Positions 29,865-33,896 of a DNA stretch of 50,274 bases are shown here, one piece after another (the stretch's first letter is position 1; every line of letters begins with the position of its first letter). The notes beneath the pieces were generated by a model. The model was given only the letters and a program-made list of their open reading frames with translations, made no database searches and was not told where the DNA came from. The stretch lies in NCBI GenBank assembly GCA_019752535.1, contig JAIEMA010000065.1, positions 1-50,274 of the forward strand. Direction: 5' to 3'. Source of the DNA: Bacteriovoracaceae bacterium. Its GTDB lineage: Bacteria > Bdellovibrionota > Bacteriovoracia > Bacteriovoracales > Bacteriovoracaceae. Both the position numbers and the translations under genes were made by a program.

Positions 29865-30043
29865 AACTGGCCGTTTTACTTGGCTAAACATATAATATTG
29901 ACGGGCTTTGGTCTTTCGAAGAAACAAGTACTTAGATATAAAAGCCTAAGAGAAACTTCAAGTTCAACTCCGATTTTAAAATTAGCCGCTTGATAGCAAG
30001 GAATTGAGATAAAATTATCTTTAATTGGGCTTGGCTGATTGGC

Positions 30044-30049
30044 TATACT
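30044..30049 (+). promoter_or_regulatory. Possible -10 for the tandem peptide genes
   Basis: TATACT, 77 bases before the first micro-gene, with a poor -35 candidate TTAATT at 30021-30026 (17-bp spacer). A perfect TATAAT also occurs at 29891-29896 without a good -35, so the leader may be longer. The 260-base stretch 29865-30125 is AT-rich and holds nothing else I can support. Confidence 0.35.
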
Positions 30050-30125
30050 GCCTGTCAGATAACCTGTTAATGTTTGGGTTTATATTTGTCGATAAACTGA
30101 ACTGATTCATTAATTTTAGGAATTT

Positions 30126-30224
30126 ATGAAAACTATAAACTTTGGAACACTTGGCTCAGCGAGCGTGAAGCAACTTGAGTTTGATGAAACAGCTGTTTTG
30201 GCAGCTGCAGCTGCAAAAGATTAG
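30126..30224 (+). CDS. Small peptide A, candidate precursor peptide
   Basis: 32 aa, beginning MKTINFGTLG, continuing SASV-K-Q-LEFDET and ending VL followed by five Ala, Lys, Asp. Too short for ordinary gene calling, but real by three signs: TAGGAA lies just upstream at normal spacing, a second paralogous gene starts 8 bases after its stop, and the two differ mostly at third codon positions. There is no signal peptide. Shared with peptide B: I-x-FGT-x-GSASV-x-x-LEF-4x-VLAAAAA. It converges on the carrier protein/ligase/PqqD-like/GNAT operon. A modified-peptide precursor is my inference; it could also be a small structural or regulatory peptide. Confidence 0.75.
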   Translation: MKTINFGTLGSASVKQLEFDETAVLAAAAAKD

Positions 30225-30232
30225 GATTGAGC

Positions 30233-30334
30233 ATGACAATGATAAGTTTTGGAACATTCGGTTCAGCAAGTGTTAGAGAGTTAGAATTTGAACAAAGTGA
30301 AGTACTAGCTGCAGCAGCTGCCGCCGCTAAATAA
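30233..30334 (+). CDS. Small peptide B, paralogue of peptide A
   Basis: 33 aa, beginning MTMISFGTFG and ending VL, seven Ala, Lys. AGGA of the Shine-Dalgarno overlaps the TAG stop of peptide A, giving coupled translation. Against peptide A, the GSASV codons differ at four of five third positions with no change of residue, and LEF and VL are also kept through synonymous codons. The poly-Ala tail differs in length (five against seven) and uses mixed GCA/GCT/GCC, so it is not a simple triplet expansion. A Lys follows the Ala run in both. It stops 2 bases before the stop codon of the convergent GNAT-like gene. Confidence 0.78.
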   Translation: MTMISFGTFGSASVRELEFEQSEVLAAAAAAAK

Positions 30335-30336
30335 TT

Positions 30337-31041
30337 TTATTTAAAATACCCATATATTTTTGTCTTAGTGAATTTGTAACCAAGGGCCAGATGGAGTTGG
30401 ATTGATGTGACATTTTTCTCACTCACCCAAGTCACCCTTCTCCTCCCCACTCTCTGAACCTTTGTAACTTCTTTTATCAGCTCAATCCCTTTAAGCCTGC
30501 TCCACAAGTAATGACCTATGTAGAGATTGTCTTCTAGTTCCCATAGATGAAGATGAATAATCTCGCCGTTTGCATTTCGTATAAGATGAATTTTTGATCT
30601 TTCTGGTAAATGAAGATTTGAATTAAAGGTATCTTGAAATTCAGGATCCAATAGAAGGAATTCTCTGGCCCAATCTTCTTTTATTGGTGCGGGCTCAAAC
30701 GGATGATGATCTAAGGGTGGGGCTTCCATCAGGCTCATTTCTTTCTTAACCCAGCCACTGAGCCCCTCTATCGGCTTTGTAAGCCATATAGAGAGCCGAC
30801 TTCGTGAAAATGATTCTAGGGCCGTTTTTGGATCTTTCAGCAATCCATGGAGGATCATGTGTCCTTCGACCTCAGAGCCAAGAAGAAAGCCCGAATCTAA
30901 TCGAAAGAGTGTGACTGGGGTGGTGGCTTTAAGCTTTTCTATGAAATCTTGAATATGCGCAGTGGGAGCAAAACCTTGATAAAGGCTGCACCATTTAAGG
31001 ACTTCATCACGGAAAATTATTTTTGAATTCAGCTGGCTCAA
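30337..31041 (-). CDS. GNAT-like acyltransferase, putative peptide-modifying
   Basis: 234 aa, TTG start overlapping the PqqD-like stop as TTGA. The C-terminal third (about 150-234) resembles the end of a GNAT fold: IHLHLWELEDNLYIGHYLWS (beta strands) and VSEKNVTSIQLHLALGYKF, matching the usual N-x-x-S-x-x-x-H-x-x-L-G-F step before the last strand. The N-terminal part is not recognised and no clear R/Q-x-x-G-x-G/A acyl-CoA loop is visible, so the donor may be a carrier-bound group. It is the last gene of the carrier-ligase-PqqD operon and faces the two peptide genes. Function as the transferase of that pathway is an inference. Confidence 0.6.
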   Translation of the reverse strand: MSQLNSKIIFRDEVLKWCSLYQGFAPTAHIQDFIEKLKATTPVTLFRLDSGFLLGSEVEGHMILHGLLKDPKTALESFSRSRLSIWLTKPIEGLSGWVKKEMSLMEAPPLDHHPFEPAPIKEDWAREFLLLDPEFQDTFNSNLHLPERSKIHLIRNANGEIIHLHLWELEDNLYIGHYLWSRLKGIELIKEVTKVQRVGRRRVTWVSEKNVTSIQLHLALGYKFTKTKIYGYFK

Positions 31042-31322
31042 GCCGACACAATAAGTTCACGCTCAACAAGGAAGTTAAGCATTTTTTCAAAGTCTGGCTC
31101 AATCTCCGGAGTCAGATTTTGACCTAACTTCTTAGCCAAATCACTAGCGGCAGTTGTTCCATCACAGGCGAGGAAAAATTCGCCCACAAAGCCTTCGAGA
31201 GTAATAAGATCGGCACTTTCTTTGTCAGTGAAGACGATATTCAATTTATCGTTCTTTTTCACATGAACAGCTGAAGGATTACGAGAGAACACGTTTTTTG
31301 CAGTTATAGTAGATTTTGACAT
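31038..31322 (-). CDS. PqqD-like protein (RiPP recognition element fold)
   Basis: 94 aa from the ATG at 31322. The winged-helix PqqD pattern is clear: a beta hairpin (NKLNIVFTDKESADLITLEG without the first residue), then VGEFFLACDGTTAASDLAKKL and a closing helix FEKMLNFLVERELI. PqqD-like domains bind leader peptides of ribosomally made, modified peptides and present them to the modifying enzyme. An in-frame ATG at 31403 would add 27 residues inside the ligase gene; the 31322 start gives a normal PqqD length. No strong Shine-Dalgarno is seen. It overlaps the GNAT-like gene by 4 bp. Confidence 0.75.
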   Translation of the reverse strand: MSKSTITAKNVFSRNPSAVHVKKNDKLNIVFTDKESADLITLEGFVGEFFLACDGTTAASDLAKKLGQNLTPEIEPDFEKMLNFLVERELIVSA

Positions 31323-31353
31323 GCAGGCATTTTCACACAGCTCAAAACCGGGG

Positions 31354-32520
31354 TCAACTTCTAGTGTGTCTTCGCTTCTTTGACGCTGTTGCATTGCCGA
31401 CAAAACGAGGCACCCAAGAACCTTTAGGCAATAGAGCGTCTAGGAATTTAAGCTTTTCCCGCATTGAGTCTTCACTGTTTGACGGTGCAAGAACGAGCTC
31501 TAAAACCAAAGACTGACCGGCCAAGGGATCTTGTAGGGAGACTGCGGTGGCATCAACAATCCCCTCCACTTCTAAAAGTTTTGACTCGATCTCCAATAAA
31601 TTTATTTTTTGTCCCCAAAAGTTGGCGACTTCATGACGAGCGCTTTGAATTTGAAAATAGCCCTCTTCAATATTCCTGGCTTCATCACCTAATAAATAAG
31701 GCTTAACAAGAGGGGCCATCGAGCCATCAGCATAGAGCCAAAACTTAGCTAATCTTGAACTCGTAATTTGAATTTGATTTCCCTTGAGTGACCAGGATTG
31801 ATCAGTCAATTGAACCAACCAAGGCTTTTCTGGGTGAGTCTTTGTCGGGGCCTGCCAGGCCTCAGTACAACCATAGACCTGAATGATTTCTAAGTTTGGT
31901 GCTACAAGCTCTTTCTTCTTTATCCAAATAGGTTGCATCGCATCGGCACAAGAATAAAAGAGTTTCAAATTTTCTAAAATTCGATTTTTTGTCGCAAGCC
32001 AAATCCCTAATTGTTGTGGAGGGCCTGCGACTGCATCTGGCTTCATGGGAGAATTCTTTTCGCGCCAATGATCCCCAAGAGAAAGGGTTACTCCCTGACT
32101 GATGGCCCCAAATAAGACCTCTAGAGCCGCAGCATGAGAGGGCATAAGTGAGGCGGCGAGATGAGTGATAGGCTTTTCTATAGGTAAGCCTGGTTTTAGT
32201 GAGGACCAATCATGGGCCACCCACTTTGGTGCGCCCTCACTGCCGGATGTTCTTAAAAGAAGAAAGCCCTTAGACAAAACTTCAGGAATAGAATCAGGGG
32301 CAAGTGCGCCTTTGGGAGTCAACATCAGAGTCGCATTATCTCTTGCGGCTGCAAAAATTCTACAAAGTGAATCGAAACTCCATTCAGGTTGAAAAATGAG
32401 TGGAGATTGTGTTTGGGGAATTTTTTCTACTCGTTCTAAAATTTGCTTATAGCTCAATGAGCCTTCGTTTAAATAAATTTTCGAGTCAGGATGTTTATTA
32501 AGAGCGCTGATGAACGGCAT
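31354..32520 (-). CDS. Short AMP-forming acyl/aminoacyl ligase
   Basis: 388 aa from the ATG at 32520, which has a strong GGAGG 6 bases upstream; an ATG at 32547 is less likely. Class I adenylate-forming fold: A3-like TSGSEGAPK (91-99), A5-like VYGCTEAW, A7-like YLLGDEAR, and an A10-like NATASKKRRH close to the C-terminus. At 388 residues it is much shorter than typical acyl-CoA synthetases (about 500), with a reduced N-terminal subdomain. The gene overlaps the carrier protein gene upstream by 23 bp, so it probably loads that carrier. Substrate unknown. Confidence 0.78.
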   Translation of the reverse strand: MPFISALNKHPDSKIYLNEGSLSYKQILERVEKIPQTQSPLIFQPEWSFDSLCRIFAAARDNATLMLTPKGALAPDSIPEVLSKGFLLLRTSGSEGAPKWVAHDWSSLKPGLPIEKPITHLAASLMPSHAAALEVLFGAISQGVTLSLGDHWREKNSPMKPDAVAGPPQQLGIWLATKNRILENLKLFYSCADAMQPIWIKKKELVAPNLEIIQVYGCTEAWQAPTKTHPEKPWLVQLTDQSWSLKGNQIQITSSRLAKFWLYADGSMAPLVKPYLLGDEARNIEEGYFQIQSARHEVANFWGQKINLLEIESKLLEVEGIVDATAVSLQDPLAGQSLVLELVLAPSNSEDSMREKLKFLDALLPKGSWVPRFVGNATASKKRRHTRS

Positions 32521-32761
32521 CGCGTGCCTCCAGCAATATTCTTTCAAGATCTCTTATATTCATTTTTGCCAAATCATTTTCAATAAAAGCCATCTGAAAA
32601 AACTTATCCCGCCACAAGGGGTCTTGGTTTTCAAATAATTCAATAAGAAAGCTAGACCATTGCATACTGTCCCAATCGAGATTTCCTATAGTTCCTCCTT
32701 CACCCAATGAAGAGAGATACTTTTTAAAAACTGAATGAATGTGTGCCATAATATCAGACAT
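32498..32761 (-). CDS. Acyl-carrier-like protein
   Basis: 87 aa, acidic, four-helix pattern. NLDWDSMQW carries S32 at the position of the phosphopantetheine serine (canonical D-S-L/M). Helix 2 (WSSFLIELFE) and the end (LAKMNIRDLERILLEARDA) fit an ACP or PCP. It diverges from textbook carriers, with Trp on either side of the DSM core. GAGGAA lies 6 bases before the ATG. It is first in the operon ahead of the AMP ligase, and its 5' end overlaps the divergent glycosyltransferase start. Confidence 0.72.
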   Translation of the reverse strand: MSDIMAHIHSVFKKYLSSLGEGGTIGNLDWDSMQWSSFLIELFENQDPLWRDKFFQMAFIENDLAKMNIRDLERILLEARDAVHQRS

Positions 32762-33896
32762 GTCGCTTCCTCAAGTTACCATTTTAGGCTTTCACAAAAA
32801 GACACATTGGTCTAGCTTGCGGATCATTAATCAGCGACTCGAAAACATTTTCAGGCATAAATATCAGATCACTTCAGTCTATGCCGATGATCCTAATGCC
32901 TCACTACCAGTGAGTGACGCCTATGCTCTACTTGACCATAGATGGACTTCAAGAGAGCTTCTCACTGAAATCGCCAAAACTAAAAAGCCTGTATGGCTTT
33001 ATGTCTTTGGTGATCTCACAATCCGAGTTAAAGATCTAAATCTTACTCTTATGGCTTTAGAAGGATGCCCCGTTCATATTGTGCTGGCTTCACGGGCTCA
33101 AAAGAATCTCTTTCTCCTCCTCTACCCCGAACTGGAAAAAAATCTCATCATCGCCCCTTACCCGGTCAGTTCAAATTTTATGCCCGATCACCAAGCGCGG
33201 CAAAATATTTGCAATGAATTGAAAATCCCCTCAAATTCAAAAATTATTGGCTATGCCGGCCGATGGAGTGAGCAAAAAGGAACCCTCGATTTACTGAAGG
33301 CTGCGAGGCTTTTAGATGATGAGAATCTGCATGTCGTTCTTACTGGCCATAGTGACAACTTAGGTTTTGCTCAACTTACGGGTTCATGGGTTGATGAGAC
33401 TTTTCCTAAAAAAATCGCCCCTTTTCTTACCAAAAATGTGCACATCACAAAATCGATTCATCCTGATCAAATGCCTCATTTTCTCTCAGCTCTTGATCTC
33501 TTTGTTTGTTCTGGATGTTTTCATGACGAAGACTACAATCTCACAGCCGCTGAAGCTCTGAGCGTCGGCACACCTTGCTTGCTGAGTGCATGGGGAGGGC
33601 ATTTAGACCACGCCCAGAGAGTTCCAAAAAGTGTCACTTTACTCACTCCTCAACTAGGAAATGAAGGCTATAAGATTTCAATGAATGAGTTGGCCCATAA
33701 AATGAATGATTCGAAACTGATAAAAGAGTCTCATCTCACCTTGGACTACCGAGCACCAGAGATACCAAGCACATTATTAAAAAATGTCTCTCTCAATTTA
33801 AAAGCTCAAAGAATGATAGAGAGAGTTGATTTTCTCAGTCTCAATGGAAAATTAGATCAGGATTTTTATCAATGGCTGTATCAGAGTTATCTTTAA
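32760..33896 (+). CDS. GT4-type glycosyltransferase
   Basis: 378 aa from the ATG at 32760; an ATG at 32739 would overlap the carrier gene more and neither has a Shine-Dalgarno. GT-B fold: IIGYAGRWSEQKGTLDLLKA (donor-binding domain start), VVLTGHSD, and the E-x7-E region HDEDYNLTAAEALSVGTP typical of GT4 retaining enzymes. Likely cytosolic. It is divergent from the carrier protein gene with almost no intergenic space, so promoters must lie inside the neighbours' coding sequence. It could glycosylate the peptide, a lipid or a polysaccharide. The target is not shown by sequence. Confidence 0.8.
   Translation: MSLPQVTILGFHKKTHWSSLRIINQRLENIFRHKYQITSVYADDPNASLPVSDAYALLDHRWTSRELLTEIAKTKKPVWLYVFGDLTIRVKDLNLTLMALEGCPVHIVLASRAQKNLFLLLYPELEKNLIIAPYPVSSNFMPDHQARQNICNELKIPSNSKIIGYAGRWSEQKGTLDLLKAARLLDDENLHVVLTGHSDNLGFAQLTGSWVDETFPKKIAPFLTKNVHITKSIHPDQMPHFLSALDLFVCSGCFHDEDYNLTAAEALSVGTPCLLSAWGGHLDHAQRVPKSVTLLTPQLGNEGYKISMNELAHKMNDSKLIKESHLTLDYRAPEIPSTLLKNVSLNLKAQRMIERVDFLSLNGKLDQDFYQWLYQSYL

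Follow-up and report, generated by a model that had tools for sequence, protein, structure and literature searches.

We analysed a window of 50,274 nucleotides (nt) from contig JAIEMA010000065.1 of a Bacteriovoracaceae bacterium (assembly GCA_019752535.1), which holds a cassette of seven intact open reading frames (ORFs) at positions 29865-33896. Two very small peptide genes on the plus strand are faced by four genes on the minus strand, from which a GT4 glycosyltransferase gene diverges on the plus strand. Compared with related genomes, which combine similar peptide pairs with other chemistry, the cassette looks like a new variant of the systems that make ribosomally synthesized and post-translationally modified peptides (RiPPs). 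Its features are the following.

29865..33892, no strand: whole cassette, bounded by the stop codons of a DUF218 gene and a lipoprotein-like gene
30126..30224, plus strand: candidate precursor peptide 1, 32 amino acids (aa), MKTINFGTLGSASVKQLEFDETAVLAAAAAKD; AGGA 5 nt before the ATG, paralog of peptide 2, leader aligning without gaps to the peptides of the related locus L223
30233..30334, plus strand: candidate precursor peptide 2, 33 aa, MTMISFGTFGSASVRELEFEQSEVLAAAAAAAK; same basis as peptide 1, including the Shine-Dalgarno-like AGGA
30337..31041, minus strand: GNAT-like protein, 234 aa, TTG start, candidate transferase; C-terminal GNAT-type motif seen by eye
31038..31322, minus strand: PqqD-like protein (RiPP recognition element, RRE), 94 aa; PF05402, homolog in genome G039
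31354..32520, minus strand: short AMP-forming ligase, 388 aa from the ATG at 32520; AMP-binding and C-terminal domains, core motifs
32498..32761, minus strand: acyl-carrier-like protein, 87 aa, candidate phosphopantetheine Ser32 in DWDSM; hhalign to an acyl carrier protein (ACP) profile
32760..33896, plus strand: GT4 glycosyltransferase of a subfamily recurring in PqqD loci; Glycos_transf_1, start set by alignment A2

The minus-strand genes are tightly packed in the order carrier-like, ligase, PqqD-like and GNAT-like. The stop codon of the PqqD-like gene overlaps the TTG start of the GNAT-like gene (TTGA), while the ATG at 32520, most likely the correct start of the ligase, is preceded by GGAGG and falls inside the carrier gene. 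Such an overlap and such an internal start are typical of translational coupling. An earlier, sequence-only reading of this DNA had described the row as an overlapping operon, and the packing, the TTGA overlap and the GGAGG before the ligase ATG all agree with this. Peptide 2 and the GNAT-like gene face each other with 2 nt between their stop codons, and the carrier and GT4 genes diverge at 32739-32790, where their start codons overlap in CATG. An Rfam search of the cassette found no element, and scans for promoters and terminators stayed at chance level.

The cassette arose by one insertion event. In G001 and G003, two genomes of the same genus, the DUF218 and lipoprotein-like genes stand tail to tail with nothing between them. 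Since the flanking genes are adjacent in both genomes and the junction is precise, the cassette behaves as one inserted block. Elsewhere in the family, the DUF218 gene is likewise close to spoT in several genera that lack the block, and gain in the window lineage is therefore likelier than repeated loss. The base composition of the cassette equals that of its flanks and gives no sign of foreign origin, so that its source cannot be told from it.

The two peptide genes are real protein-coding paralogs under purifying selection. The pairwise score of their products is 88, as compared to 34 for the best of 2,000 shuffles. Third codon positions hold 22 of the 36 base differences between the genes, and the proportions of synonymous (pS) and nonsynonymous (pN) differences are 0.87 and 0.23, respectively. 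With the AGGA sequences, these data substantiate the tandem paralogous genes of 32-33 aa that had been read on the plus strand. The pattern common to both peptides, M..I.FGT.GSASV..LEF....VLAAAAA, is best explained as an N-terminal leader, FGTxGSASVxxLEF, followed by an Ala-rich C-terminal core. Thr22/Ser22, right before VLAAAA, is the single hydroxyl residue common to both, and a Lys occurs at or next to each C-terminus. Neither peptide matches any Pfam or NCBIfam family, and thus neither carries the NHLP or Nif11-type leader expected of a selidamide. Searched with the peptide-motif pattern, the GTDB genomes gave three chance matches in unrelated proteins, and IMG/VR gave none.

The identity of the 94-aa protein as PqqD-like, also part of the sequence-only reading, was borne out by comparison within the genome. 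PF05402 (PqqD) matches it with an E-value of 0.0098, under the curated Pfam cut-off; it is clearly similar (z 6.1-6.2) to a PqqD protein of the same genome that passes the cut-off, and on this similarity the locus contains an RRE. Only one homolog was found in 359 genomes of the phylum, in G039 (E 3.3e-4, z 12.4). A sequence search of the PDB returned nothing for the PqqD-like, GNAT-like or carrier proteins.

The neighbourhood of the G039 homolog (L223) comprises two tandem peptides, the PqqD-like gene, a NodU-type carbamoyltransferase and a GT4 of the window's subfamily. Its peptides, MSDDLKKELIFDFEEFGTIEHTTIDDVDFSDDSVQISYAKTARTLIN and a paralog (pS 0.75, pN 0.14), align to the window peptides without gaps over 19-28 residues, with scores reached by 0.02-0.5% of shuffles; in the leader, FGTIEHTTI corresponds to FGTLGSASV of the window. 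A second locus, L218 of the same-genus genome G002, encodes a tandem pair of 51-aa peptides together with a PqqD-like protein, a NodU-type carbamoyltransferase and a GT4. Both loci resemble the window in their tandem short peptides with an FGx-type leader, PqqD-like protein and GT4 subfamily. On the other hand, the carbamoyltransferase replaces the carrier, ligase and GNAT-like protein of the window. No description of either locus was found in the literature searched.

The glycosyltransferase follows the same association. Its family assignment is plain, as Glycos_transf_1 matches at 2.3e-13, over the Pfam cut-off; the divergent GT4 gene of the sequence-only reading thus stands, with its start most likely at 32760. 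Among its eight best homologs in relatives, five have a PqqD gene no more than 8 kb away, as compared to about 1 in 100 expected by our estimate from 1-3 PqqD genes per genome of 3-4 Mb. As had been supposed, it is very likely that the peptides are the substrates which the PqqD-like protein presents: the PqqD genes of G039 and G002 stand near tandem peptides with similar leaders, and PqqD loci repeatedly contain this GT4 subfamily. Comparison therefore supports the link between peptides, PqqD-like protein and GT4. It likewise suggests that these three form a recurring core, while the carrier, ligase and GNAT-like module is the variable part of the window.

The leader itself appears to belong to a wider set. 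Scanning PqqD loci with the exact GSASV motif retrieved no related peptides, and a looser leader motif proved useful. Near the start of small ORFs in the PqqD loci of the family, [YF]xFGx[LIF] was seen 19 times, as compared to 1.55 expected by shuffling. A single family, whose members have a Peptidase_S74 domain and adjoin PqqD and radical SAM genes, accounts for 13 of these 19 ORFs, so that the ORFs represent about six independent families. The window leaders begin this motif with I (INFGTL, ISFGTF) and so fit a looser form only; the loose motif was seen 46 times (21.4 expected) and co-occurs with GT4 at p 0.017, weak values on which we do not rely. The gap-free alignment with G039 and the motif enrichment indicate that loci with the same RRE have a leader in common, and we read FGx[LIF] as a probable leader motif for the PqqD-like protein. 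As far as its accessible text goes, a survey of RRE recognition names YxxP, Lx4F, HIxxI and FxLD, and not FGx[LIF] (PMC12710340).

Several other PqqD loci were observed in the course of this comparison. L214, L215, L091, L093, L094, L101, L103, L110, L122, L127-L129 and L137 encode proteins of 141-169 aa with a YxFG[EG][LI]KEFNL-type start, followed by a Peptidase_S74 domain where this was tested, and several of these loci have radical SAM genes nearby. The proteins look like unusually large RiPP precursors, some of them near GT4, S24/S26-like protein and ABC-2 export genes. Loci of the L214/L215 type are like the window in having a PqqD gene, an adjacent ORF with a YxFG[EG][LI] leader and the same GT4 subfamily, and differ from it in radical SAM chemistry, larger S74-domain candidate precursors and the presence of an exporter. 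L123 and L126, from two genomes, each combine a PqqD/GT4 locus with a peptide of 85-87 aa that bears an FFGELKKIEL leader and a Pro-Gly-rich tail. The window's own genome contains a possible second RiPP locus, L087 (G000:C31, 6992-9582), with a PqqD gene near YcaO-like and JmjC/cupin genes. A possible third is L088 (G000:C1, 4832-4984 and 7072-8398), in which a PqqD and radical SAM/SPASM pair lies about 2 kb from a 50-aa candidate precursor (…VTFGAVCNGTTTGGRKAV…). In addition, G000:C32 (L176, L178-L180) has large ORFs of 1785 and 2108 aa that contain several carrier domains and appear to be of the nonribosomal peptide synthetase type.

Within the variable module, the protein of 388 aa is a short AMP-forming ligase, as first read. 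The AMP-binding (8e-7) and C-terminal domain (0.0031) profiles both match slightly under their Pfam cut-offs, and the NCBIfam model AcsA (acetate-CoA ligase) matches at 6.7e-11. In alignment A1 the motifs TSGSEGAPK, YGCTE and GDEARN and the C-terminal Lys region are intact. At the position where amino-acid-activating domains have Asp, the ligase resembles acyl and aryl acid ligases in having PSH; its substrate is therefore more likely a carboxylic acid without an alpha-amino group. The three nearest ligases among 369 genomes of the phylum, only 21-26% identical, all have a carrier gene close by, and it is plausible that the window ligase also loads a carrier protein. The same three lie within, or not far from, clusters of sugar and polysaccharide genes.

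The carrier assignment of the 87-aa protein is mixed. It has no Pfam hit (PF00550 unmatched), and as its pairwise alignment to ACPs was at chance, we used a profile comparison. Against a profile of seven carrier proteins, hhalign scored 20.8, which none of 100 shuffles (10.1 +- 2.0) reached, and Ser32 of its WDSM sequence falls on the phosphopantetheine serine of ACPs. The fold model has four helices, with a predicted local distance difference test score (pLDDT) of 66, and Foldseek gave nothing usable. The acyl-carrier-like protein of the sequence-only reading thus has moderate support, from the profile score and not from a domain match.

The 234-aa protein was not confirmed as a GNAT. The C-terminal motif WVSEKNVTSIQLHLALGYKF is its only GNAT-like feature, although its sequence suggests two GNAT-like halves. 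It matches nothing in Pfam or NCBIfam up to E=10; hhalign against GNAT was no better than for shuffles, though in register; and its fold model (pLDDT 43) was unusable. No homolog was found in 116 relatives, plasmids, IMG/VR, phages or, at close range, 84,980 GTDB genomes, and the 359 genomes of the phylum yielded only one chance stretch with stops. The GNAT maturase that characterizes selidamides was accordingly not recognized in the cassette, and we treat this protein as a GNAT hypothetically.

Two kinds of known systems resemble parts of the cassette. In altemicidin biosynthesis, SbzL (ligase), SbzG/SbzK (carriers) and SbzI (GNAT) transfer an N-acyl group from carrier to amine, and the coenzyme A route, tested for the sister pair SbzB/SbzC, failed (PMC6331615). 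This system, like FeeM, shares with our model the path from adenylate-forming ligase through carrier and GNAT to an amine. It is unlike the window in that a small molecule takes the place of the ribosomal peptide as acceptor, and in having no PqqD-like protein. Conversely, GNATs are proposed to acylate RiPPs in selidamides, phaeornamide, nostolysamides and goadvionins (PMC13060382), which resemble our model in joining a ribosomal peptide to an acylating GNAT. Those RiPPs involve lanthipeptide enzymes, and the GNATs studied with NpuN act with NHLP or Nif11-type leaders (PMC13060382); the window, by contrast, lacks leaders of these types and has a separate PqqD-like protein, its own dedicated ligase and carrier, and an unconfirmed GNAT.

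We propose that the cassette makes a modified ribosomal peptide through the concerted action of its ligase, carrier, GNAT-like, PqqD-like and GT4 proteins, a full model to which we give an even chance. The PqqD-like protein would bind the FG leader and present the peptide. The ligase would adenylate a carboxylic acid and load it onto the phosphopantetheine of the small carrier. The GNAT-like protein would take the acyl group from the carrier and attach it to an amine, either in the peptide or in a sugar that the peptide bears. GT4 would add the sugar, perhaps at Thr22/Ser22. Carrier loading, acyl transfer, the order of the steps, the acceptor residue, the product and its role are what we infer here. 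In a more specific form, the peptide presented by the RRE would be acylated by a GNAT-like enzyme that the dedicated ligase and carrier supply. This acyl module would be the variable part of an FG-leader tandem-peptide/PqqD/GT4 family that spans the lineage and otherwise uses carbamoylation or radical SAM chemistry; this form we put forward only tentatively.

Several observations weigh against the proposal. The 234-aa protein has neither profile nor fold support as a GNAT, and the support for the carrier is moderate. The search of related genomes for the same gene set, suggested with the sequence-only reading, recovered tandem peptides near PqqD genes in G039 and G002; among the genomes searched, the full set was found only in the window's own, without a second copy, so that a single locus connects the acyl module with the peptides. 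The leader resemblance of the G002 peptides to the window is weak, with scores reached by 0.4-24% of shuffles. In addition, the overlapping ATGs of the divergent carrier and GT4 genes leave no intergenic space for a promoter, and neither a protease nor an exporter gene lies within the cassette.

The foremost alternative, rather unlikely in our estimate, keeps the RiPP pair and has GT4 glycosylate the peptide, with the ligase, carrier and GNAT-like protein acylating that sugar. NodU/TobZ-type carbamoyltransferases often act on sugars, carbamoylating them. Because such an enzyme joins PqqD and GT4 in G002 and G039, where the window has its acyl module, the acceptor may be a sugar, and the sugar and polysaccharide surroundings of the nearest ligases point the same way. 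The Lys at or next to the C-terminus of both window peptides, which the sequence-only reading had named as a possible acceptor, speaks for the peptide and remains one option; however, no Lys is conserved there between the window and the related cores. The cassette has no sugar-nucleotide enzyme, which counts against acylation of a sugar.

It is improbable that the peptide is not itself the product but, as in carrier-peptide pathways, a scaffold for the assembly and release of a small molecule. The very short peptides with their bland Ala-rich tails and the lack of a protease or exporter would suit a scaffold. Against it, the two peptides have cores that agree only in part, and the cassette has no release or elongation enzyme; a Pfam profile search found no PEARL/LanB-type ligase domain in any of its proteins. 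We rate as just as improbable the chance proximity of a RiPP core (peptides, PqqD-like protein and GT4) and unrelated acyl-metabolite genes (carrier, ligase and GNAT-like protein). The acyl module was not seen with such peptides elsewhere, as that would predict, but the PqqD-like gene stands between the ligase and GNAT-like genes in one overlapping operon, and all genes were gained or lost as one block. A degenerate cassette of one lineage with no active product, to which its presence in a single genome and the GNAT-like protein without recognizable relatives might point, is very improbable: none of the seven ORFs is broken, each has a ribosome-binding site or is translationally coupled, and the two paralogous peptides have conserved their amino-acid sequence.

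If the proposed acylation of a leader-presented peptide is true, the cassette would join carrier loading of the small-molecule type to leader-guided peptide modification. One core of leader, RRE and glycosyltransferase would then combine with different chemistry modules. The lineage would also hold a so far undescribed candidate RiPP group, recognizable by its FGx[LIF] leader and hence directly minable.

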